Below the pieces are notes generated by a model. That model did no database searches. It was not told the origin of the DNA and saw nothing but the letters and a program-made list of their open reading frames with translations. DNA of 64,000 nt from Gammaproteobacteria bacterium. GTDB taxonomy: Bacteria > Pseudomonadota > Gammaproteobacteria > GCA-001735895. Made by a program: the position numbers and the translations under genes. The stretch spans positions 1 through 64,000 of the forward strand of contig JAHEKJ010000002.1 in assembly GCA_024638385.1 (NCBI GenBank). Reading direction: 5' to 3'. Every line of letters begins with the position of its first letter. Within the stretch, counting starts at the first letter, position 1. Of the stretch, positions 20,083 through 63,752 are shown piece by piece.

Positions 20083-21117
20083 ATGGATATTGCTCAACTC
20101 CTGGCTTTCGGCGTGAAACAGGGCGCCTCGGATTTACACCTGTCCGCGGGGTTGCCGCCGATGATTCGCGTCGATGGCGACATTCGCCGGATCAACGTTC
20201 CGGAGATGGACCACAAGCAGGTGCACGACATGATCTATGACATCATGAGCGACAAGCAGCGCAAGGATTACGAGGAATACCTGGAGACCGACTTCTCGTT
20301 CGAGATCCCGGGGCTCGCGCGTTTTCGCGTCAACGCCTTCAATCACAATCGCGGCGCCGGTGGCGTCTTCCGGACGATCCCGTCGAAGATCCTGAGCCTC
20401 GAGGACCTGAACGCGCCGAAGATCTTCCAGGAAATCTCCGAGTATCCGCGCGGCATCGTGCTCGTCACCGGGCCGACCGGCTCGGGCAAGTCGACCACGC
20501 TCGCCGGCATGGTCGACTACAAGAACGATACCGAGTACGGCCACATCCTGACGGTCGAGGACCCGATCGAATTCGTCCACGAAAGCAAGAAGTGCCTCGT
20601 CAACCAGCGCGAGGTGCACCGCGATACGCTGGGCTTCAACGAGGCGCTGCGCTCGGCGCTGCGCGAAGACCCGGACACGATCCTGGTCGGCGAGATGCGC
20701 GACCTGGAGACCATTCGCCTCGCGCTGTCGGCGGCCGAAACAGGCCACCTCGTGTTCGGCACGCTGCATACGAGTTCGGCGGCCAAGACCATCGACCGGA
20801 TCGTCGACGTGTTTCCGGCGGCGGAAAAGGCCATGGTACGTTCGATGTTGTCGGAATCGTTGAAGGCGGTCATCTCGCAAACGCTGATGAAGAAGATCGG
20901 CGGCGGCCGCATCGCCGCGCACGAAATCATGATCGGCACGCCGGCGATCCGCAACCTGATCCGCGAAGACAAGGTTGCGCAGATGTACTCGGCCATCCAG
21001 ACCGGACAGAATGTCGGCATGCAGACGCTGGATCAGAATCTCAAGGCGTTGCTGGCCCAGGGCGTCGTCGCCAAGGACGAGGCGCAACGCAAGGCGGCTA
21101 ACCCGGAAGCGCTATAA
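20083..21117 (+). CDS. pilT: Type IV pilus retraction ATPase PilT
   Basis: Hexameric secretion-type ATPase at the inner-membrane base of the type IV pilus that drives pilus depolymerisation and twitching. It has 344 residues, the canonical length. Key motifs are ASDLHLSAG at the N-terminus, Walker A GPTGSGKST near 133-141, the Asp box TVEDPIEFVH, Walker B VGEMRDLET, the His box GHLVFGTLHTSSA, and the C-terminal TPAIRNLIRED (AIRNLIRE), which marks true PilT and is needed for retraction. It is the first of three tandem homologues. Confidence 0.97.
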   Translation: MDIAQLLAFGVKQGASDLHLSAGLPPMIRVDGDIRRINVPEMDHKQVHDMIYDIMSDKQRKDYEEYLETDFSFEIPGLARFRVNAFNHNRGAGGVFRTIPSKILSLEDLNAPKIFQEISEYPRGIVLVTGPTGSGKSTTLAGMVDYKNDTEYGHILTVEDPIEFVHESKKCLVNQREVHRDTLGFNEALRSALREDPDTILVGEMRDLETIRLALSAAETGHLVFGTLHTSSAAKTIDRIVDVFPAAEKAMVRSMLSESLKAVISQTLMKKIGGGRIAAHEIMIGTPAIRNLIREDKVAQMYSAIQTGQNVGMQTLDQNLKALLAQGVVAKDEAQRKAANPEAL

Positions 21118-21147
21118 TCGGCACCGGCGAGACCGGGAGGAAGACTC

Positions 21148-22317
21148 ATGGACCGTAACAAGGCAATCAGTTTCATGCACGACCTGCTGCGCATGATGGT
21201 CAGCAAGGACGGTTCGGACCTGTTCATCACGTCGGGCTCGCCGCCGGCGATGAAAATCGACGGCAAGGTCACGACGGTATCGAAGCAAAACCTGTCGCCG
21301 AGCCACACGCAGATGCTGGCGCGCTCGATCATGAACGACAAGCAGGTTTCGGAATTCGAGGAACACCAGGAATGTAATTTCTCGATCGCGCTGCCCGGCG
21401 TCGCGCGCTTTCGCGTCAACGCCTTCGTCCAACGCGGCAGCTGCGGCCTGGTGCTGCGTATCATCAACTCCGAGATTCCCGGCTTCGAAGAGCTCAACCT
21501 GCCGCCGATCCTGCAGGATATCGCGATGACCAAGCGCGGCCTGGTGATCTTCGTCGGCGGCACCGGCTCGGGTAAATCGACCTCGCTGGCGTCGATGGTC
21601 GACTACCGCAACCGGAATTCGCACGGTCATATCATCACGATCGAAGACCCGGTTGAATTCGTCCACGATCACGGCAATTGCCTGGTCACGCAGCGCGAGG
21701 TCGGCGTCGATACCGAATCCTACGAGATCGCGCTGAAAAACACGCTGCGACAGGCGCCCGACGTGATCCTGATCGGCGAGATCCGCGACCGCGAAACCAT
21801 GGAGCACGCGATCGCGTTCGCCGAAACCGGCCACCTGTGCCTGTCGACGCTGCACGCCAACAGCACCAACCAGGCACTCGACCGCATCATCAACTTCTTC
21901 CCCGACGAACGCCGCCAGCAACTGCTGATGGACTTGTCGCTGAACCTCAAAGGGCTGGTGTCGCAGCGGCTGATTCCGAAGATCGACGGCGCCGGTCGAA
22001 TCCCGGCGATCGAGGTCATGCTCAACACGCCGCTGATGGCCGACCTGATCTTCAAGGGCGACGTGCACGAGATGAAGACGCTGATCTCGAAATCCAACGA
22101 AGCCGGCATGCAGACTTTCGACCAGGCGCTGTTCAGGCTCTTCGAGGAGCGCAAGATCACTTACGAGGATGCGTTGCGCAACGCTGATTCGGTCAACGAT
22201 ATTCGTCTGCGCATCAAGCTCGAGAGTGAAACCGCGCGCAAGACCGGTATCACCGACGACCACCGCGATTTCGAGCTCGAAGAGTCCGAGGACGAGACCG
22301 CGAGCGGGATGATCTGA
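21148..22317 (+). CDS. pilU: PilT-dependent retraction ATPase PilU
   Basis: PilT paralogue of 389 residues that works with PilT to raise retraction force. It has Walker A GGTGSGKST, Asp box TIEDPVEFVHD, Walker B IGEIRDRET and His box GHLCLSTLHANST. In place of AIRNLIRE it has the PilU-type TPLMADLIFKGDVHE, and it ends with the PilU-like YEDALRNADSVNDIRLRIKL. A strong GGGAGGAAG ribosome-binding site precedes the ATG, 30 bases after pilT. Its acidic tail (ELEESEDE) is probably disordered. Confidence 0.94.
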   Translation: MDRNKAISFMHDLLRMMVSKDGSDLFITSGSPPAMKIDGKVTTVSKQNLSPSHTQMLARSIMNDKQVSEFEEHQECNFSIALPGVARFRVNAFVQRGSCGLVLRIINSEIPGFEELNLPPILQDIAMTKRGLVIFVGGTGSGKSTSLASMVDYRNRNSHGHIITIEDPVEFVHDHGNCLVTQREVGVDTESYEIALKNTLRQAPDVILIGEIRDRETMEHAIAFAETGHLCLSTLHANSTNQALDRIINFFPDERRQQLLMDLSLNLKGLVSQRLIPKIDGAGRIPAIEVMLNTPLMADLIFKGDVHEMKTLISKSNEAGMQTFDQALFRLFEERKITYEDALRNADSVNDIRLRIKLESETARKTGITDDHRDFELEESEDETASGMI

Positions 22318-22326
22318 CGAGGTTTC

Positions 22327-23490
22327 ATGATGTCGCGCGAACCCACCACCAAGCTGCTCGAGCCCTACCTCAAGGTCATGGTCGAAAAACAGGCCTCGGA
22401 CCTGTATTTCGTCACCGGCGCGGCGCCCAATATGAAGACCCAGGGTCATACTTCGGCGATCGCCAAGAACCCGTTCCAGACCGGGCAGGTGCAAAAGCTC
22501 GCCTACAGCCTGCTGACCGACGAACAGGTGCGCGACTTCGAGATCAATCGCGAACTCAACCTCGGCTTCACGCTGCACGATGTCGGCCGCTTCCGCGTCA
22601 ACATCTTCATCCAGCGCTCCGAGGTGTCGATGGTCATCCGCTACATCAAGTGGGACATCCCGACCATCGACCAGCTCGGCCTGCCGCAGGTGCTCAAGGA
22701 AATCGTTATGAACCAGACCGGCCTGGTGCTGGTCGTCGGCTCGACCGGTTCGGGTAAATCGACGACGCTGGCGTCGATGCTCGATCACCGCAACAAGTCG
22801 GCAGGCGGGCATATCCTGACGATCGAGGATCCGATCGAATTCGTCTTTCGTCACAGCAAGTCGATTATTTCGCAACGCGAGGTCGGCATCGACACGCTGT
22901 CTTACGAAAACGCCCTGCGCGAGGCCCTGCGCGAGGCGCCCGAGGTCATCATGATCGGCGAGGCGCGCGACTCGGAGACGATGAAGGCCGCGATCAATTT
23001 CGCCGACACCGGCCACCTCTGCCTGACCACGCTGCACGCGGTCAACTCCAACCAGGCGATGGACCGGATCATGAACATGTTCCCGACCGACATGCGCGAG
23101 CAGTTGCTGATGGACTTGTCGCTGAACCTCAAGGGCGTGATCTCGCAGCGCCTGGTGCCGGGGATGCAAGGCAAGCTCGCCTGCGCGGTCGAGATCCTGA
23201 TGAACACGCCGTACATTTCCGAGCTGCTGCGCGAAGGCAACTTCAACGAGATAAAGGAAATCATGGAGAAGGGTGACCAGGCCGGCATGCAGACCTTCGA
23301 CCAGTCGCTCTACGATCTCTACAAGGACGACAAGATCACGATCAAGTCGGCGCTCGCCTATGCCGACTCGAGCACCAATCTCGAGTGGAAGATCAACTTC
23401 GGCGGCGAGCAGCGCGAGCGGGACACGCGCCACAATCTGAACCAGCAGGGCGATCTCCAGGAGCTGACCCTGCCGTCCGAAGAAGACTGA
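22327..23490 (+). CDS. Third PilT/PilU-family pilus ATPase
   Basis: Second PilU-like paralogue, 387 residues, starting 9 bases after pilU. It keeps all ATPase motifs: Walker A GSTGSGKST, Asp box TIEDPIEFVFR, Walker B IGEARDSET and His box GHLCLTTLHAVNS. Like PilU it lacks AIRNLIRE and has TPYISELLREGNFNEIK instead. Its end, SSTNLEWKINFGGEQ, is unlike standard PilU. The P. aeruginosa locus has only pilT and pilU here, so this is a lineage-specific third member. It may adjust retraction force or serve another pilus; this is inference. Confidence 0.9.
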   Translation: MMSREPTTKLLEPYLKVMVEKQASDLYFVTGAAPNMKTQGHTSAIAKNPFQTGQVQKLAYSLLTDEQVRDFEINRELNLGFTLHDVGRFRVNIFIQRSEVSMVIRYIKWDIPTIDQLGLPQVLKEIVMNQTGLVLVVGSTGSGKSTTLASMLDHRNKSAGGHILTIEDPIEFVFRHSKSIISQREVGIDTLSYENALREALREAPEVIMIGEARDSETMKAAINFADTGHLCLTTLHAVNSNQAMDRIMNMFPTDMREQLLMDLSLNLKGVISQRLVPGMQGKLACAVEILMNTPYISELLREGNFNEIKEIMEKGDQAGMQTFDQSLYDLYKDDKITIKSALAYADSSTNLEWKINFGGEQRERDTRHNLNQQGDLQELTLPSEED

Positions 23491-54883: not shown

Positions 54884-55063
54884 TAACACCCCGCGCTTGC
54901 AACCAACGCTCGCCCAATCAGATCTTACCCAGGGAAAAACTCCGGTCGGCGGAGGGAGGCAACGAGTTTTTGCTCCGATTAATAACATTCTTCCGGGCTG
55001 TCGAAATCGGCGTCGCGCGATCGTTCAATGCGCATGAACTGCTATCTGGAGGGACCGAAGCGG

Positions 55064-55113
55064 TTGACATACATACCGGTCGGTATTATAAAGCATACCG
55101 ACTGGTATGTATG
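55064..55113 (+). promoter_or_regulatory. Sigma70 promoter overlapped by a double TetR-type operator
   Basis: TTGACA (55064-55069) and TATAAA (55087-55092) are exactly 17 bases apart, the best promoter in the window. Two operator-like palindromes flank the -10: ATACCGGTCGGTAT (55073-55086) and ATACCGACTGGTAT (55095-55108). Together they form a larger dyad of 19-base arms (55068-55086 and 55095-55113) with 18 matching positions. Binding would block RNA polymerase, so autorepression by the TetR protein directly downstream is likely. Confidence 0.85.
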
Positions 55114-55117
55114 CGAC

Positions 55118-55756
55118 ATGAACGGCCTGACCGACAACGACGTTTACTGGTGGCGCCCGCTCGACGACGCGCCGCTCGACACCCGCGACAAGATCCTGTT
55201 CGCGGCCTACAAGGAAATCCATCTCAACGGCTTTCAGTCGGCGAGCCTGAGCAACATCCTCGCGCAGACCGGCGTCACCAAGGGCGCGCTCTACCATCAC
55301 TTCAACAGCAAGACCGAGCTCGGCTACGCGGTCGTCGACGAAGTCATCGCCAAACGCATTTACGTTTCGTTCATCGGTCCGCTCGAAGGACTCGACGATC
55401 CGATCGAGGGATTCATCGATCTGATCCGCGACGCCGGCGCGAGCTTTTCGATGACCGACATCGAACTCGGCTGCCCGTTGACGGTGCTGGCGCAGGAAAT
55501 GGCGCCGATCGACGAGGGATTCCGCACCCGCCTGATCCGCATGTACGCCCAGTGGCACGCATCGATCGCGAGCGTGTTGTGCCGCGCGCGCGACGCCGGA
55601 CTGATCATCGACGAGGCGAACCCCGACAGCCTCGCTGTCATGATCGCGTCGACCCTGGAAGGCAGTATCACCGCCGCGAAGGTGGCGCAGGACCTCGACA
55701 AGCTGCATCAGTGCGGCGCCGGGCTCATCCAGTTCCTGCAACTACTGCGCAAATAA
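55118..55756 (+). CDS. TetR/AcrR family transcriptional regulator
   Basis: Ligand-responsive repressor of 212 residues. The HTH is textbook: FQSASLSNILAQTGVTKGAL followed by YHHFNSKTELGYAVVDEV. The C-terminal ligand domain resembles those with a TetR_C_6-like helical tail. The ATG at 55118 is chosen because an in-frame upstream ATG (55028) lies ahead of the promoter. The double operator ends 4 bases before the start. The exporter gene follows after 15 bases, so the regulator probably controls the whole cluster. Confidence 0.92.
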   Translation: MNGLTDNDVYWWRPLDDAPLDTRDKILFAAYKEIHLNGFQSASLSNILAQTGVTKGALYHHFNSKTELGYAVVDEVIAKRIYVSFIGPLEGLDDPIEGFIDLIRDAGASFSMTDIELGCPLTVLAQEMAPIDEGFRTRLIRMYAQWHASIASVLCRARDAGLIIDEANPDSLAVMIASTLEGSITAAKVAQDLDKLHQCGAGLIQFLQLLRK

Positions 55757-55771
55757 TCGAGAGACACGACC

Positions 55772-58117
55772 ATGGCACGCGAATACTCGCAATTCATCCT
55801 CAGGTTCAAATGGACGGTGGTTTTGCTATCGGTGATCTGGATCGCGATCATGGGCGCCGGCGCGCAGCACCTGACCTTCACCAACGATTACCGCGTCTTC
55901 TTCGGCGAGGACAACCCGCAGCTGGTCGCGTTCGAGTACCTGCAGGACACCTACTCGAAGAACGACAACGTCATGTTCGTGCTGGTGCCCGACGACGGCA
56001 ACGTCTTCACCCGCGAAACCCTCACCGCGGTCGCGTGGCTGACCGAGCGCGCGTGGGGGACGCCGTTTTCGACCCGCGTCGAATCGCTTTCCAATTACCA
56101 GCACACGGCGGCCGAGGGCGACGACCTGGTGGTCGCCGATCTCGCCTACGAGCCGGAAAGCCTCGGCGACGAAGATCTCGCCCGGATTCGCGAAATCGCG
56201 CTCGCCGAGCCGGTACTGGTCAATCGACTGGTTTCGCCGCGCGCGCACGTCACCGGCGTCAACGTCACGATCGAGCTGCCCGGCGAAGACCAGACTACCG
56301 AGAATCCGCAGGTGGTCGAGTTCGTGCGCGCGCTCGCGGCCGAATTCGAACAGACCTTCGCGGGCATCGACGTTCGCCTGACCGGCATCTCGATGATGAA
56401 CAACGCGTTCCCCGAGGCCAGCCAGTACGACATGTCGACGCTGTTCCCGCTGATGCTGGTCATGTTCGTCGTCGTGCTGTATTTCTGGATTCGCGGCTTT
56501 GCCGGCACGATCGCGACCTTTTTCATCATCATTTTCTCGATCGTCGGCGCGATGGGCATGGCCGGCTGGCTCGGCATCGCGCTGACGCCGCCGTCGTTTT
56601 CGGCGATCATGATCATCCCGACGATGGCGATCGCCGACAGCGTGCACGTGTTGATGAACTACGTGCTCGCGCGGCAACGCGGCGAAGACAAGCGAGCGGC
56701 GATGGTCGACAGCATCCGGATCAACCTGCAGCCGGTGTTCCTGACCAGCATCACGACCGCGATCGGCTTCCTGAGCATGAATTTCTCCGACGCGCCGCCG
56801 TTCCACGATCTCGGCAACATCGTCGCGATGGGCGTCATGATCGCGTTCGTGCTGTCGGTGACTTTCCTGCCGGCGGTAATGATGCTGCTGCCGGAGCGGC
56901 AGCGGCGGGTCGATTCGGCGTCGAGCCGCCTGATGGCGCGTTTCGCCGAGTTCGTCATCGCCAATCGCCGGCGGCTGCTCGTCGGCATGGGTCTCGGCTG
57001 CCTGGTCTTGATCTCTTTCGTGCCGGCCAACGAGCTCAACGACAACTTCGTCAAGTATTTCAGCGAGCGCATCGAGTTTCGTCGCGACGCCGATTTCGCG
57101 TCGCAAAACCTCGCCGGGCTCTACACGATCGACTACTCGCTCGAGTCGGGCGAGGACGGCGGCGTCAGCAACCCCGAGTTCCAGCAACACGTCGAGAACT
57201 TCGCCAACTGGTACCGCGCTCAGCCCGAAGTGCAGCACGTCAACGTCATCACCGATACCTTCAAGCGGCTCAACAAGAGCATGCACGGCGACGACCCGAC
57301 CCGGTACAGGCTGCCCGAACAGCGCGATCTCGCCGCGCAGTACCTGCTGCTCTACGAGATGTCGCTGCCCTACGGCCTCGATCTGAACAACCAGCTCAAC
57401 ATCGACAAGTCGGCGACGCGCATGACGGTCATGCTGCACAACATGACGACCAAGACGGTGCTCGCGCTCGAGGCGCGCGCGCAGGCCTGGTTGCGCGAGA
57501 ACTCGCCGCCCGGTATGCAGGTCGCCGGCGCGAGCCCGACGATCATGTTCAGCCACATCGGCGAGCGCAACATCAGGAGCATGCTGCTCGGCACGACCGT
57601 CGCGCTGGTCCTGATCTCGCTGATCCTCGTGTTCGCGCTGCGCTCGATCAAGATCGGCCTGCTGAGCCTGGTGCCAAACCTGATCCCGGCGGCGCTCGCG
57701 TTCGGCGTCTGGGGCATCTTCGTCGGACAGGTCGGGCTCGCTTTGTCGGTCGTGACCGGCATGACGCTCGGCATCGTCGTCGACGACACGGTGCATTTCC
57801 TCAGCAAGTACCTGCGCGCACGGCGCGAAAAGGGACTCGATTCGCCCGACGCGGTGCGCTATGCATTCAACACCGTTGGCCTCGCGCTGGTCGTGACCTC
57901 GCTGGTACTGGTCGCCGGTTTCGGCGTGCTCGCGTTCTCGGCCTTCGTGTTGAATTCGCAGATGGCAACGATGACCGCGGTCACGATCGTGTTCGCGATC
58001 GTCGCCGATTTCCTGTTATTGCCGCCGCTGCTGATGGCGCTCGACCGCGATAAAAAGCCGGCGGACAGCGCCGATCCCTTGATGACTTACAAGACGCAGG
58101 AGCAAAGCAATGTCTAG
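55772..58117 (+). CDS. MMPL/RND-superfamily exporter
   Basis: Inner-membrane proton-driven transporter of 781 residues. It has a TM at about 13-30, a large periplasmic loop, a TM bundle at about 215-390, a second half starting with a TM near 408, a second periplasmic loop, and TMs at about 610-760. Motifs such as PTMAIADSVHVLMNY and GMTLGIVVDDTVHFLSKYLRAR match the predicted-exporter (HpnN/MMPL-like) group, which moves lipids or hydrophobes rather than drugs through TolC. No membrane-fusion protein is encoded nearby. Its last codons overlap the next gene by 8 bases. Confidence 0.9.
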   Translation: MAREYSQFILRFKWTVVLLSVIWIAIMGAGAQHLTFTNDYRVFFGEDNPQLVAFEYLQDTYSKNDNVMFVLVPDDGNVFTRETLTAVAWLTERAWGTPFSTRVESLSNYQHTAAEGDDLVVADLAYEPESLGDEDLARIREIALAEPVLVNRLVSPRAHVTGVNVTIELPGEDQTTENPQVVEFVRALAAEFEQTFAGIDVRLTGISMMNNAFPEASQYDMSTLFPLMLVMFVVVLYFWIRGFAGTIATFFIIIFSIVGAMGMAGWLGIALTPPSFSAIMIIPTMAIADSVHVLMNYVLARQRGEDKRAAMVDSIRINLQPVFLTSITTAIGFLSMNFSDAPPFHDLGNIVAMGVMIAFVLSVTFLPAVMMLLPERQRRVDSASSRLMARFAEFVIANRRRLLVGMGLGCLVLISFVPANELNDNFVKYFSERIEFRRDADFASQNLAGLYTIDYSLESGEDGGVSNPEFQQHVENFANWYRAQPEVQHVNVITDTFKRLNKSMHGDDPTRYRLPEQRDLAAQYLLLYEMSLPYGLDLNNQLNIDKSATRMTVMLHNMTTKTVLALEARAQAWLRENSPPGMQVAGASPTIMFSHIGERNIRSMLLGTTVALVLISLILVFALRSIKIGLLSLVPNLIPAALAFGVWGIFVGQVGLALSVVTGMTLGIVVDDTVHFLSKYLRARREKGLDSPDAVRYAFNTVGLALVVTSLVLVAGFGVLAFSAFVLNSQMATMTAVTIVFAIVADFLLLPPLLMALDRDKKPADSADPLMTYKTQEQSNV

Positions 58118-58895
58118 ACTCAACCGATTTATCGCCCTGGTCTTGCTGGCGTTGCCGTTCGCAGCCGTCGCGACGAGCGCCGGGGAAAAGGGCCTCGAGA
58201 TCGCCACGGCGGCCGACGCCTACGATGCCGGCTTCGGCGATTTCGTCGCCGACATGAAGATGATTCTCGTCAACAAGGCCGGCGACACGTCGACCCGCGA
58301 GATTCGCATCCGCACCCTCGAGGTCGAGGGCGACGGCGACAAGAGCCTGTCGATCTTCGACGAGCCGGCCGACGTCAAGGGCACCAAGATGCTGACCTAT
58401 TCGCACGGCCTCGAACCCGACGACCAGTGGCTCTACCTGCCGGCGCTCAAGCGCGTCAAGCGGATCAGCTCGCGCAACAAGTCCGGGCCGTTCATGGGTT
58501 CGACCTTTGCCTTCGAGGACCTCGGCTCGCAGGAGGTCGAGAAGTACACTTACAAGTACCTGCGCGACGAGCCCTGCGGCGACTGGACCTGCCATGTGAT
58601 CGAGCGCTACCCGGCCTACGAGTTTTCCGGCTACACCCGCCAGGTGGTCTGGCTCGATACCGCGGCCTATCGCGTCGCCAGGACCGAGTACTACGACCGC
58701 AAGCAGTCCCTGCTGAAGACGCTGACGATGAGCGAATACCTGCAGTTTCTCGATCATTACTGGCGCCCGGGGCGCATGGAAATGGTCAACCACCAGACCG
58801 GCAAGAGCACGATCCTCGAGTGGACCGGCTACCGCTTCCGCACCGGGCTCAGTGAAGCCGATTTCCGTTCGCAGACGCTCAAACGCACGAATTGA
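58110..58895 (+). CDS. LolA-like outer-membrane lipoprotein-sorting family protein
   Basis: Periplasmic protein of 261 residues with a signal peptide (RFIALVLLALPFAAVATSAG). The mature part matches the LolA-like sorting family: AGDTSTREIRIRTLE, KGTKMLTYSH, DDQWLYLPALKRVKRISS and FMGSTFAFEDL. Two cysteines (CGDWTC) may pair. LolA-fold proteins carry acyl chains in a half-barrel cavity. Overlap with the exporter gene (ATGTCTAG) implies coupled expression, and similar MMPL/LolA-like pairs occur in other proteobacteria. A hydrophobe carrier between exporter and outer membrane is inference. Confidence 0.88.
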   Translation: MSRLNRFIALVLLALPFAAVATSAGEKGLEIATAADAYDAGFGDFVADMKMILVNKAGDTSTREIRIRTLEVEGDGDKSLSIFDEPADVKGTKMLTYSHGLEPDDQWLYLPALKRVKRISSRNKSGPFMGSTFAFEDLGSQEVEKYTYKYLRDEPCGDWTCHVIERYPAYEFSGYTRQVVWLDTAAYRVARTEYYDRKQSLLKTLTMSEYLQFLDHYWRPGRMEMVNHQTGKSTILEWTGYRFRTGLSEADFRSQTLKRTN

Positions 58896-60082
58896 TGCGC
58901 TGGATCCCCCCCATCCTCCTCCTCCAGTGCATTGTTACGGCGGCCCCGGCGGCCGCCGATTTTTCTGGCAATATCGCGATCGAGGCGGTGACTTTTTTCC
59001 AGGACGCGCAGTTCGACGAGCAGTTCGACGACAACGCGACGCTGTCGTTCGAGCCGCGCTGGACGGCGCAATGGAACGACGGCGACGACCGCTTCAGCGC
59101 CGAGCTGTTTCTGCGCGCCGACGACGAGGACGCCGGCCGCGAGCACGCCGATATCCGTGAATTGCTGTGGTTGCGCATCGACGGCGACAACGAGTGGCGC
59201 GTCGGCATCAATACGATGTTCTGGGGTGTGGTCGAATCGCAGCACCTGGTCGACGTGATCAACCAGATCGACGCGGTCGAGGGCATCGACGGCGAGGAAA
59301 AGCTCGGCCAGCCGATGCTGCACTGGAAGCGTTACGCCGACGCGGGCGTATTCGACGTGCTGATCCTGCCCGGCTTCCGCGAGCGCACGTTCCAGGAAGC
59401 CGAGGGCCGGCTGCGCCCGCCACTGGTCGTCGACACCGACCAGGCCGAGTACGAGTCCGGCGACGAGGAAAACCACGTGGATTTCGCCCTGCGCTGGTCG
59501 CAGACCTTTGGTGATCTCGATCTCGGCGTGCACCTGTTCGACGGCACCAACCGCGAACCGGTGCTATTGCCCGGCACCGATGAAGACGGCGATTCGGTAT
59601 TGATTCCGTTCTACGAGCAAATGACGCAAATCGGCGTCGACGCACAACTGATCGTCGAGGACTGGATCTGGCGGCTCGAACTGATCCGCCGCGAAGCGGA
59701 CTCGGGCGACCGCACGGCGTACGTCGCCGGCTTCGAGTATACGTTCTACGGCATCCTCGAATCGCCAACCGACCTCGGTCTGCTCGCCGAGTACTCCTAC
59801 GACGACCGGCCCGAGGACGAGCGCGGCGTGTTCGACCGCGACCTGTTCCTCGGCGCGCGTTTCGCCTTCAACGACGTGCAGTCGAGTGAAGTGCTCGCCG
59901 GCTTCATCGTCGATACCAACTACGACAGCCGCAGTTTCCGCATCGAGGGCAATCGCCGCTTCGGCGACAGCTTCAAGGGCACGCTCGAGCTGCAACTGTT
60001 CGCCAACGTCGACGCCGCCGATCCGCTTGCCGCAGTGGCGAAGGACGACCACCTGCTGCTGGAACTGGCTTATTTCTTCTAG
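58895..60082 (+). CDS. Probable outer-membrane beta-barrel protein
   Basis: Protein of 395 residues with a signal peptide (IPPILLLQCIVTAAPAAA) and an acidic mature part rich in alternating hydrophobic strands. It ends LLLELAYFF, with the C-terminal Phe needed by the BAM complex. I see no known porin family beyond weak resemblance to alginate-export-like or DUF1302-like barrels. The ATG at 58895 overlaps the previous stop (TGATG). It is the third gene of the exporter cluster and could be its outer-membrane exit. Confidence 0.75.
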   Translation: MRWIPPILLLQCIVTAAPAAADFSGNIAIEAVTFFQDAQFDEQFDDNATLSFEPRWTAQWNDGDDRFSAELFLRADDEDAGREHADIRELLWLRIDGDNEWRVGINTMFWGVVESQHLVDVINQIDAVEGIDGEEKLGQPMLHWKRYADAGVFDVLILPGFRERTFQEAEGRLRPPLVVDTDQAEYESGDEENHVDFALRWSQTFGDLDLGVHLFDGTNREPVLLPGTDEDGDSVLIPFYEQMTQIGVDAQLIVEDWIWRLELIRREADSGDRTAYVAGFEYTFYGILESPTDLGLLAEYSYDDRPEDERGVFDRDLFLGARFAFNDVQSSEVLAGFIVDTNYDSRSFRIEGNRRFGDSFKGTLELQLFANVDAADPLAAVAKDDHLLLELAYFF

Positions 60083-60172: not shown

Positions 60173-60481
60173 ATGGACGACAACGCCGAACTTGGCATCC
60201 TGAAGACGCAGGCGGCGAAGAAAAGCGGCGTCGCCGAACGCCAGTCCTGGGGCATTGCCTACGTCAACGAAAGAATCCTGATCTACCTGTTCGCGCTCGC
60301 GCTGATCGGGCTCGCCGTGGTCTGGGCGACCGCGACCTCGGCCTGGGTACTCTACGGCTCGTTCGCCGGCGTCGTCGCGATCACGGTCCTGTGGGGCTAC
60401 GCGCGGATCAAGCACATCGAATTCGAACGCCTCGAACGCCAGCGCCAGGTCGACGCGATGCGCGGCGATGCCCCCGACTGA
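60173..60481 (+). CDS. Hypothetical small two-TM membrane protein
   Basis: Protein of 102 residues, unrecognised. Two TM helices (about 36-53 and 60-78; YLFALALIGLAVVWATAT and VLYGSFAGVVAITVLWGY) are followed by a charged helix (KHIEFERLERQRQV). A GGGGAA ribosome-binding site precedes the ATG. It lies 90 bases after the barrel gene and may or may not belong to that operon. A CCGAG-CGGG-CTCGG hairpin follows the stop, without a T-run. Confidence 0.72.
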   Translation: MDDNAELGILKTQAAKKSGVAERQSWGIAYVNERILIYLFALALIGLAVVWATATSAWVLYGSFAGVVAITVLWGYARIKHIEFERLERQRQVDAMRGDAPD

Positions 60482-60574: not shown

Positions 60575-61747
60575 TCAGGTTGGTCCGACCCCACGACTGG
60601 CCTTCATTCGGCTGGCGGCGCTGGTAAAGCCGCCGTCGCTGCCGTCGACGAAGTGAATGTGCCGGCTGTCCTCGAGGCTGAACACGAGGCAGGTCATCAA
60701 CGCCGAATCCGAGCGGTGCAGGCCGTACTCGATTTCGCCGCCGGCCGCGCGGGCCGCGAGCGCGGCTTCGATCTGCCCGGCCTGTTCTTCGCTGCAGTCG
60801 AGCAGCAGGCGCAGGGTATCGTCGAAGCGGCGGTAGTCGGTGTTGCTGCGCAGTTCGACGCGATAGCGCTTGCCGGCGTAACCACCCGCGCTCCAGTCGA
60901 AGCGGTCCAGCAAGAATTGCACGAAACTGTTGAAGTACAGCCGGGCGGCGTACCCGATGCGGTTGCGGTCGCCGACGGTGGCCCTGATCTCGGCCCTGAG
61001 CCCGCGCGGCGGCCAGCGGAAGCGCATGTTGGCGTCGCACACCGGTTTGCAGCGCGCGTCGAGACGCCCGGCGATGGTGTCGATTTCCCCGATCAGGTCG
61101 CGGTAGAGCCGGGCATTCGCCCGCGCGTCGTCGCCGCGCGCCCGCAGCAGCAGGCTCAGCATCACGCCGCGCTGGGCCTCGAGCGGTTCCCAGCGGCACG
61201 ACAGGCCGTCGAGGTCGGGCGGCCCCTCGTCGCCGGCCTGTTCGACGCGCCAGGCGGGATCGGACTTGATCCAGCGTTCGGCCAGGTCGATGCCGCCGCC
61301 GGTAAAGGTCGCCAGCTCGTTGCCCGGGCTCAGGCGGTACTTGCCGACGAGCACGCGCGCACGCGGCTGGCGATGAATTTCGACCACCGGCACCAGGCCG
61401 ACACGCAGCGACAGGTCGAAATCCGTCTCCGCCAGCCGGCGCAAGCCGAGCAACGCGCGTCGACACGCCGCGAGCGAGGCTTCGGGAATCAGCAGCGTCG
61501 CGCCGTCGCCGCCGAAGACGTAGGGAATCAGCCCGCGCTCGGTCACGTTGAGCACGGCGTTGATGCTGGCGGCGCCGATCAGGTTGACGTTCTTGTAGCG
61601 GCCCTCGGCGATCGCGCGGGTCGAGCCCTCGACGTCGGCGATGACGACGTACCAGCCGTCCGGCGCGACGGCGTAGTGGTCGGGATTGGCGATGCCGGCG
61701 AAGTCGTCGAAGGCCTCGAGTTCGTGGTAGAAACGCTCGTCACTCAT
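60575..61747 (-). CDS. DUF3095 domain-containing, cyclase-like protein
   Basis: Soluble protein of 390 residues from the ATG at 61747. The N-terminal half resembles the class III nucleotide-cyclase fold: VVIADVEGSTRAIAEGRYKN, YVFGGDGATLLIPE (a GGDG motif) and LRVGLVPV, a pattern described for DUF3095. The second Asp in the GDG segment could bind metal; catalytic activity is not established for the family. The C-terminal part is unassigned. It is a single gene in opposite orientation to the preceding cluster. Confidence 0.85.
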   Translation of the reverse strand: MSDERFYHELEAFDDFAGIANPDHYAVAPDGWYVVIADVEGSTRAIAEGRYKNVNLIGAASINAVLNVTERGLIPYVFGGDGATLLIPEASLAACRRALLGLRRLAETDFDLSLRVGLVPVVEIHRQPRARVLVGKYRLSPGNELATFTGGGIDLAERWIKSDPAWRVEQAGDEGPPDLDGLSCRWEPLEAQRGVMLSLLLRARGDDARANARLYRDLIGEIDTIAGRLDARCKPVCDANMRFRWPPRGLRAEIRATVGDRNRIGYAARLYFNSFVQFLLDRFDWSAGGYAGKRYRVELRSNTDYRRFDDTLRLLLDCSEEQAGQIEAALAARAAGGEIEYGLHRSDSALMTCLVFSLEDSRHIHFVDGSDGGFTSAASRMKASRGVGPT

Positions 61748-61964
61748 CGATCCGGGAGTTTGTGTCTGCCATGTCAATTGCGTTCACCGAATCAGGACCG
61801 CGTCGTCGGCGAGAATACCCGCGCGCAGGTCGTCGAGCGCGGCATTACCGTCAACCAAAACGACCTGAAGCACGGCCAGGCGCGAATCCTTGAATCTTCT
61901 CGATAGATCCCAGGCATTGGCCAACACCGCCGGAAACCGCGATTGTCCGCTCGAACCCGGTTAT

Positions 61965-63689
61965 TTACCGGGCCAACTGGAGCCTTTTTATCGCGGACAT
62001 CCGCTTGTCCGTCATCATCCTGGCGAGTTCCGGTCGCGATTCGTACAGATTCTCCTTCTCGCCGGGATCGTTTCTCAGGTCGTAGAGTTGCGCCTGCGAA
62101 GCACCGTCCCTGCCGATGATGAGCTTCAACAGGTGTTGCGCGTCCTGGTAGACCAGGCCCAGGGTATCCTTCCGGTTATCCAGATAGCCGAATTTTCTCG
62201 CTCCCGGCTGCTGCAACGGGCGTCCCATGAACGAATCCGGGACCGGCAATTCCATCTGGTACAGCAGCGTCGGCGGAATATCCATCAGCGTTGCAAAAAA
62301 ACCGGTGTCGATGTCCAGTTCCATGTTGTTGCTACTCCAGAATATTATCGGCACGTGAATTTCTTCCTGGTACAGGGTCTGGTAGTGGCCATAGTTTCCG
62401 CGCTCGCCCATCGCATCTCCATGGTCGCCGAAGATGACGACGATCGCATTGTCCAGGTAGCCCTTTTCTTCGAGCGACGAAAATATAGTCCTGACATAGT
62501 CATCGAATTGATGGGCGCGGTTGTCGTGGTCATTGATCGACGCGCGACGGTGGGATTCGCCGCCGAGCATGAACAACAGGCTGTCTCGCGTCGGTCGGTA
62601 CTTCTGGTATTTTTGCGGGTGGCTGCCCAGCCCATGCGAAGACATCATGCGGAGGTAGAAGAGGTTCGGCACTCCGGAGTAGCCGGGAAAGCGATCGAGT
62701 ATGTCGAGCACGTATCGGTCGTCGTGCATGTAGTAGTTGTCATCGAGGTCGGCGCGCAAAAAGTTTTCGATCCTCGGTCGCAGGTATCGATCGAGCCCGG
62801 CATGATAAAGGCTGCCCGCGCCTATAAAATTATTGACATAGCCTTGCCGGGACATGATCTCGAAAAGCCCGGTGGGAGCATCTTTGTACGAAAAGTTGGA
62901 GGTCAATACCGAAGAGAATCCGCAGATGGACTCGCTGCAGTTCGAGAAGCTGAAAGGTATTTTCTTTGCGCCCGAATCGACTATTCCGTCGATGAACGGA
63001 GAGGTCTTTCGTTGATTGCCATAGGTGCTCAGGCGATCGGCTCGCAACGCGTCTCCGTGAATCAGGACGATATTCGGCATCCGCGACCCCGCATCCCGCG
63101 CCACTTCTTTGGCCGGCGAGACGATTATTTCCTGCTGTATTTGTCCGCCGGCGGCGCGGGTGTTCAGGAATTCGTAAATCGGCTCTCCTTGCCAGATGAT
63201 GTCCATGTCCTCCGAGATTACCCAGCTCGACCAGGCAAAGCCCATTCCCAGCAAAGGCGTGGCAAGCAGCAGCCCGAAGTCCTGCGTTTTCAGTGTGATC
63301 GAGGGCAGCAGATAACGATAGGCAATGAAAACCAGGCCGGCGAGAATCACGAACACCGGCAGGATATAGACCGGAAACCGGCTCAACTCCTCGACGATCA
63401 CCTCCTGGTTGATCGTCAAAAACGACCATGAAATGAACTCGTTCCAATACTGGATGGCAACCAGGTTCGTGACATACAACAGACACAGGAACACGCTTAG
63501 AGTCGCGACGGCAAGGGTTTTCAATGCGCGGGGCATGAAATACAAAACCAGGGTATAGGCGGCGCACACCAGCAACGGATGGATGATCAATACGTTCGCG
63601 GAAAGCGGCATCCTCATCGACGTAATCAGCATTGCCGCGAATGCCAACAAAGCGTGCGCCAGTATGAATAAATGAATTCTTCGCTTCAT
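61965..63689 (-). CDS. Membrane-bound sulfatase-like hydrolase/transferase
   Basis: Alkaline-phosphatase-superfamily enzyme, 574 residues from the ATG at 63689 (an ATG at 63728 adds 13). About five N-terminal TM helices (to about 190) anchor a periplasmic domain, as in phosphoethanolamine transferases. Metal and active-site candidates are LIHGDALRADRLSTYG, SNCSESICGFSS (a possible nucleophile Cys, or Ser) and VVIFGDHGDAMGERG; YDLRNDPGEKENLY is a sulfatase-type tail. The G+C content by eye is clearly below the neighbours, suggesting transfer. Substrate unknown; envelope glycans are likely. Confidence 0.84.
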   Translation of the reverse strand: MKRRIHLFILAHALLAFAAMLITSMRMPLSANVLIIHPLLVCAAYTLVLYFMPRALKTLAVATLSVFLCLLYVTNLVAIQYWNEFISWSFLTINQEVIVEELSRFPVYILPVFVILAGLVFIAYRYLLPSITLKTQDFGLLLATPLLGMGFAWSSWVISEDMDIIWQGEPIYEFLNTRAAGGQIQQEIIVSPAKEVARDAGSRMPNIVLIHGDALRADRLSTYGNQRKTSPFIDGIVDSGAKKIPFSFSNCSESICGFSSVLTSNFSYKDAPTGLFEIMSRQGYVNNFIGAGSLYHAGLDRYLRPRIENFLRADLDDNYYMHDDRYVLDILDRFPGYSGVPNLFYLRMMSSHGLGSHPQKYQKYRPTRDSLLFMLGGESHRRASINDHDNRAHQFDDYVRTIFSSLEEKGYLDNAIVVIFGDHGDAMGERGNYGHYQTLYQEEIHVPIIFWSSNNMELDIDTGFFATLMDIPPTLLYQMELPVPDSFMGRPLQQPGARKFGYLDNRKDTLGLVYQDAQHLLKLIIGRDGASQAQLYDLRNDPGEKENLYESRPELARMMTDKRMSAIKRLQLAR

Positions 63690-63752
63690 TATTGACAACC
63701 AAAATCGATACCGACCCGGGTCATGCAAGCCGCTGCCGATAGTCCGTGAAAT

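Follow-up and report, generated by a model that had tools for sequence, protein, structure and literature searches.

Gene organization of the locus

Four genes lie on the forward strand between positions 55,064 and 60,082 of the window, i.e. of the whole stretch of 64,000 nucleotides that we analysed. They follow one promoter and encode a TetR-family repressor, an MMPL transporter, a LolA_like carrier and an outer-membrane barrel (Table 1). The MMPL and LolA_like genes overlap by 8 bp and the LolA_like and barrel genes by 1-4 bp, depending on the start codon of the barrel (ATG 58,895 or TTG 58,892), while the gap between the TetR and MMPL genes is 15 bp. These coordinates and the Pfam matches confirm an earlier note on this DNA, which had described four genes in the same direction, three of them overlapping or nearly so. 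With two overlapping junctions and a third of 15 bp, a single transcript with coupled translation is likely, as far as the sequence can tell. Two other starts of the TetR gene were rejected. The TTG at 55,064, given in the earlier note, is part of the -35 box, and the ATG at 55,028, which opens the longest frame, is not the start conserved in homologues (ATG 55,118).

Table 1. Features of the operon and the basis on which each was assigned.
Feature	Positions	Strand	Basis
Sigma-70-type promoter: TTGACA (55,064-55,069), 17-bp spacer, TATAAA (55,087-55,092)	55,064-55,092	+	Read directly from the sequence
Predicted TetR operator 1, ATACCGGTCGGTAT, within the promoter spacer	55,073-55,086	.	Palindrome near related tetR starts
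Predicted TetR operator 2, ATACCGACTGGTAT, right after the -10 box	55,095-55,108	.	Palindrome near related tetR starts
TetR-family repressor, 212 aa, TetR_C_13 type, nearly invariant Cys119	55,118-55,756	+	Pfam TetR_N and TetR_C_13_2; start from homologues, e.g. L014; conserved columns
MMPL/HAE3-type RND inner-membrane transporter, 781 aa	55,772-58,117	+	PF03176, TIGR00921; model pLDDT 87; own clade
LolA_like periplasmic carrier, 261 aa, signal peptide	58,110-58,895	+	PF17131 (E 1e-62); solved homologues 3bk5 (E 3e-89), 4z48, 9tp6
Outer-membrane beta-barrel, 395 aa, acidic, signal peptide, C-terminal Phe, distant DUF1302 relative	58,895-60,082 (or from TTG 58,892)	+	Model; transitive profile link

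The genes annotated between 52 and 63.7 kb besides the operon are RapA, BioD-like and EamA-like frames, DUF3095 and a sulfatase. No membrane-fusion protein or TolC homologue is among them, and the absence of both, as stated in the earlier note, holds over this range. Among these genes, the locus thus lacks the two partners that would make it a tripartite RND efflux system of the AcrAB-TolC type. The neighbours of the operon, here and in the relatives that we inspected, are housekeeping or unrelated genes and include no catabolic pathway. Hence, we dropped the catabolic context as a clue to the substrate. The DUF3095 protein and a membrane sulfatase-fold protein (60,578-63,728, reverse strand) are convergent with the operon, and no link between them was seen. 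Near the operon we detected no RNA families and no terminator candidate above shuffled sequence, and the 102-aa gene at 60,173 has no match at the related loci, so that we do not count it in the set. Elsewhere in the window, a frame of 773 codons (21,115-23,433, reverse strand) has no Pfam match at E 1e-4 and is perhaps spurious, lying opposite a real gene.

Predicted regulation by paired operators

The promoter was overlooked by a consensus scan because the sixth base of its -10 box is A. TTGACA is likewise found 5' of the operators in three relatives (L011, L014 and L029). The twin operators predicted in this promoter share the pattern ATACC-N4-GGTAT and are spaced by 22 bp. At least one such palindrome occurs near the tetR start in 17 of 25 related loci, and 13 of the 25 have two sites, 21-32 bp apart. 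These loci span Gammaproteobacteria to Magnetococcales, and near-variants are found in some of the remaining ones. The pattern occurs at three places in the whole genome, i.e. the promoter pair and a lone site on a different contig, and its reversed control at none. Conserved palindromes in the promoter are what an operon autoregulated by TetR should present, and their pairing only here in the genome is strong sequence-based evidence that the operon is dedicated and autoregulated by its own TetR through the predicted operators. The TetR control put forward in the earlier note is therefore strongly supported by the twin conserved operators; its ligand is something that we infer. Our search for a wider regulon returned only the extra single site, ATACCGAAAGGTAT (contig C13:3387; L216:1501-1514), which lies near ORFs with no obvious link and may have arisen by chance. 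NemR and other TetR_C_13 proteins detect electrophiles via a cysteine. By analogy, the nearly invariant Cys119 may hint at the inducer, and we take it as only a lead.

Conservation, linkage and spread of the gene set

We assembled 80 loci from a scan with the LolA-like protein. The MMPL gene is directly upstream of the LolA_like gene in 59 of the 69 loci with room for it, and the barrel gene is directly downstream in 71 of all 80. A TetR gene stands ahead of the set in 30 of the 54 loci with room, and 11 loci begin with a TetR gene of a second type. The barrel is missing in 9 of the 80 loci and the pump is not adjacent in some. Because the block is conserved in relatives, the set is not a chance arrangement. 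The earlier note had named a lack of linkage of the barrel and LolA-like genes to the exporter in relatives as the finding that would count against it, and we observe the reverse.

Some loci go further than adjacency. In one of them (L207), pump and carrier are a single protein of 1085 residues (MMPL at 35-797, LolA at 837-1085), with a TetR gene before it and the barrel after it. Another (L086) also has a pump-carrier fusion, likewise followed by the barrel. Together with the linkage, these fusions make it very likely, on genomic grounds, that pump and carrier form one working unit.

Other variants were observed among the loci. The Myxococcota-labelled contig of L086 (3284-9931) encodes, in this order, an unfused pump, another pump that is fused to the carrier, and the barrel. 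Related cassettes have a tandem pair of LolA_like genes ahead of barrel and pump (L180:6557-8338 and L185:6831-8616), which suggests a two-carrier relay. A second, partial barrel (L020:7644-8000, the same place as G016:C178:89-445) lies 3' of the full copy and corresponds to its last 119 residues at 65% identity. Two carrier-barrel pairs of Alcanivoracaceae have no adjacent pump (L039:7968-9971 and L051:7902-10092); the first follows topoisomerase I and Lysine_decarbox-family genes, and the order in the second is similar.

Of 229 genomes in an independent sample from across the class, 91 have the barrel and 108 have the carrier. At 76 of the 95 strong barrel places in this sample, a LolA_like gene on the same strand precedes the barrel by at most 0.75 kb. 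The other 19 have no adjacent carrier, and for most of them a carrier is encoded elsewhere in the genome. Within the genus, 21 of 24 genomes have the carrier. Taxon labels extend beyond the class to Alphaproteobacteria, Magnetococcales, Desulfocapsa, Myxococcota and Nitrospirota, single assignments being unsure because many of these genomes are metagenome bins.

Pump and carrier

PF03176 matches two stretches of the pump (E 2.7e-37). The modelled pump aligns with HpnN (VIA-align Z 45.5, 3.5 A over 653 residues) and with the NPC1-type NCR1 (Z 46), and MmpL5 and MmpL3 are also matched. The proton-relay Asp of TM10 (Asp671) is present in 39 of 39 sequences and His675 is also invariant, whereas Asp289 of TM4 varies (26 D, 9 N and 4 H among the 39). 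Two MMPL domains, an RND fold and the proton-relay Asp place the protein among the MMPL/HAE3 RND transporters. The lipid-type MMPL/HpnN pump of the earlier note is thus borne out by a fold close to HpnN, MmpL and NPC1 and by the retained TM10 Asp. The score for the HpnN equivalog (TIGR03480) is 114 bits against a cut-off of 752. HpnN, the hopanoid transporter, has the same HAE3 RND fold but, unlike the operon's pump, works without dedicated periplasmic or outer-membrane partners (PMC6394551). In a tree of 55 pumps, quickly built, with some long branches and with DUF1302-linked pumps standing in for AmeD, the operon's lineage forms its own clade (support 100), and the DUF1302/DUF1329-linked lineage and two others are separate from it. 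By this sequence comparison, the operon's pump lineage is distinct from the AmeD-type one.

The carrier matches PF17131 at 211 bits (cut-off 30) and has a Sec-type signal peptide, read by eye, as expected of a secreted member of this family. Its match to DUF1329 is weak (E 2e-8). Residues 114-126 form a conserved basic strip, KRVKRISS-x-NKSG. Canonical LolA (PF03548) has a sole match in the genome, on another contig (C196), and the operon's carrier is not matched. Since the genome has this separate LolA, the operon's carrier need not serve lipoproteins. That LolA carries acyl chains is textbook knowledge, which the earlier note applied to LolA folds at large; the LolA fold is indeed present here, but a PF17131 protein lies beyond that basis.

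A pump whose fold is nearest to the lipid transporters HpnN, NPC1 and MmpL could also serve a housekeeping task: supplying the outer membrane with a lipid made by the cell itself (a phospholipid, or one that is hopanoid-like or derived from fatty acids), while TetR monitors the lipid state of the membrane. The frequency of the carrier within the genus and the absence of catabolic neighbours fit this explanation. We nevertheless find it unlikely, given the patchy distribution of barrel and carrier across the class and the dedicated local repressor, which suggests an inducible rather than a constant need.

The outer-membrane barrel

The sequence of the barrel has no match in Pfam, in NCBIfam or among PDB sequences. 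Its model (pLDDT 94) is closest to the 18-strand OprD/Occ channels and AlgE, at Z about 23 (OccAB3 23.6, VIA-align) and 7-12% identity; this likeness reflects a common fold and does not imply function. From the alternation of residues along the strands, we predict a polar lumen with 21.5% D/E against 12% R/K, and the pI of the whole protein is 4.1. We found no FadL-family match for the operon's barrel in Pfam, nor among the families found for 50 members. A polar acidic lumen, unlike that of FadL, speaks against a bare hydrocarbon simply crossing the pore. The model thus argues against a FadL-like hydrophobic channel, and the barrel looks like no obvious lipid channel.

There is no direct match to DUF1302 (PF06980) in the genome, and hhalign of the barrel against it gives E 0.04 with a probability of 1%. 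As this direct comparison is weak, we used intermediate families as a bridge, i.e. barrels of 460-540 residues encoded beside other LolA_like and MMPL genes. The operon's barrel family matches the intermediates at E 6.8e-12, the intermediates match one another at 4e-27, and they match DUF1302 at 3.7e-10 and 5e-5, while the reversed controls of the chain gave 0.7 and 0.06. By this transitive profile link, the barrel qualifies as a remote member of the DUF1302 superfamily. Together, model and profiles describe a barrel of the 18-strand type, polar and acidic in its lumen and distantly related to DUF1302. On the question of the earlier note, whether it might be a substrate-specific porin unrelated to lipid, the evidence points both ways: the structural neighbours and the lumen would fit such a porin, whereas the remote kinship is with DUF1302, whose members are the barrels of RND cassettes linked to monoterpenes and Tween 20. 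The bridged barrels also indicate that there are at least four lineages of cassettes with an RND pump, a LolA fold and a barrel, in differing gene orders.

The OprD/Occ-like fold and the polar, acidic lumen might mean that the barrel serves as an ordinary substrate channel and shares no more than the operon with pump and carrier, which would work alone. The 19 barrels without an adjacent carrier and the 9 carrier loci without a barrel would agree with this. It seems very improbable to us, because the linkage is strong, the genes overlap and MMPL and LolA genes also accompany the barrel's distant relatives, in different orders.

Related systems and the direction of transport

The operon represents a separate lineage within a known group of systems that has been little studied and that includes AmeABCD and sets in Pseudomonas putida and Thalassolituus. 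AmeABCD of Castellaniella defragrans comprises a DUF1302 barrel, a DUF1329 LolA-fold protein, a YCF48-like protein and an HAE3 pump, and its deletion lowers monoterpene tolerance and increases the influx of Nile Red (PMC6394551). Like the operon, it combines an HAE3/MMPL pump, a LolA-superfamily periplasmic protein and a barrel in one cassette, with no classical membrane-fusion protein or TolC, and the barrel families are distantly related. It differs in the YCF48-like protein, which is neither among the operon's four genes nor among their annotated neighbours, in its carrier family (DUF1329 instead of PF17131), in its pump clade and in gene order. The operon has its own TetR, and monoterpene genes are not nearby.

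In P. putida, growth on Tween 20 requires PP_0765/0766/2018/2019, and barrel-carrier and carrier-pump complexes have been predicted (PMC10866462). A barrel, a LolA-fold protein and a pump act together there as they would here, but they are encoded at two separate loci, belong to DUF1302/DUF1329 families and have a periplasmic partner, PP_2018, for which we see no counterpart in the operon. In Thalassolituus oleivorans, TOL_3187, a protein with MMPL and LolA domains, is up 42-fold on the n-C28 alkane, and the porin TOL_3188 was seen only on this alkane (PMC6304351). Going by this description alone, the arrangement resembles our fused locus L207, with MMPL and LolA-like domains directly ahead of a porin that has no conserved domains, whereas the operon has two genes in place of TOL_3187. 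Bacteroidota have iron-responsive operons of the order TetR-ABC-ABC-MMPL-'outer membrane lipoprotein-sorting protein' (PMC10434189). These share with our set, again by description, a TetR, an MMPL and a LolA-like gene in one operon, and differ in their two extra ABC ATPases, their response to iron and their phylum. AupA/AupB is also an outer- and inner-membrane pair for hydrophobes in marine bacteria. We rejected it as the parent system, since AupA belongs to the FadL family and AupB is a protein of unknown function, MMPL and LolA going unmentioned in that report (PMC5989066).

The Tween 20 and n-C28 phenotypes raise the converse of export, namely that long-chain alkanes, surfactant-borne lipids or fatty acids enter through the barrel, cross the periplasm on the carrier and are handed by the RND protein to the inner membrane, to be degraded. 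The nearest folds of the barrel, the OprD/Occ channels, are uptake channels, and Alcanivorax, Oleiphilus and Marinobacterium are among the loci. Yet, to our knowledge, the characterised RND pumps of this type act outwards. The operon has no catabolic genes around it, its lumen is acidic rather than hydrophobic, and its holders include a sulfur-oxidiser-type worm symbiont, Magnetococcales and Desulfocapsa. Uptake is, in our judgement, unlikely but, like the delivery of an endogenous lipid, a serious rival. We prefer export for tolerance to hydrophobes or for adjustment of the envelope, the outward direction being what we infer. Given the housekeeping or unrelated neighbours, a general role in tolerance or in the envelope fits better than a place in one catabolic pathway.

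A model of export and its implications

We give roughly even chances to the operon encoding an autoregulated three-component envelope exporter for a hydrophobic or amphiphilic substrate. TetR would occupy the two operators of its own promoter, placed by conservation, and would leave them once a ligand accumulates, which is probably the hydrophobic or amphiphilic substrate itself or a reactive compound related to it. The proton-driven pump would then extract the substrate uphill. The LolA-like protein, as its fold, the fusions and the linkage suggest, would take the substrate into its hydrophobic cavity and shuttle it across the periplasm in the place of a membrane-fusion protein. It would finally dock on the acidic barrel, possibly through its basic strip, a contact that can be tested, and the cargo would be released into the outer membrane or outside the cell.

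Several observations favour this exporter: the order MMPL-LolA-barrel, the fusions, the twin operators, the lipid-type fold of the pump with its invariant Asp671 and His675, and the separate LolA. The phenotype of the ameABCD deletion and the complexes predicted in P. putida point the same way. Others weigh against it. The lumen is polar and acidic in a barrel whose fold is nearest to OprD/Occ and AlgE, 9 of 80 loci lack the barrel and some an adjacent pump, TetR precedes only 30 of 54 sets, and Asp289 is variable. The Tween 20 requirement and the n-C28 induction in the relatives' sets are also compatible with uptake. On balance, the system most likely exports or redistributes a hydrophobic or amphiphilic molecule under TetR control. 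The transport of a lipid or hydrophobe that the earlier note had proposed is a reasonable interpretation and is partly supported.

What is new here is the autoregulation by twin operators, the type of the barrel with its kinship to DUF1302, and the separate clade of the pump. The barrel is found in about four in ten and the carrier in nearly half of the sampled genomes of the class, although the set is unnamed and the barrel has no family entry. More tentatively than for the exporter itself, we propose that this may be a widespread, unnamed pathway, tuned by its own repressor: an RND pump would hand the lipid or hydrophobe over to a shuttle with a LolA fold, which would unload into a dedicated outer-membrane barrel. 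The dedicated operators offer a simple reporter for the inducer, which makes the question of the substrate testable. If true, the pathway would stand beside the Lol, Lpt and Mla routes and the efflux tubes that span the periplasm, as an alternative that works by a shuttle. Carrying lipids or hydrophobes by a soluble shuttle would then represent a second general way across the Gram-negative envelope, and tolerance to hydrocarbons, solvents or surfactants could rest on it.
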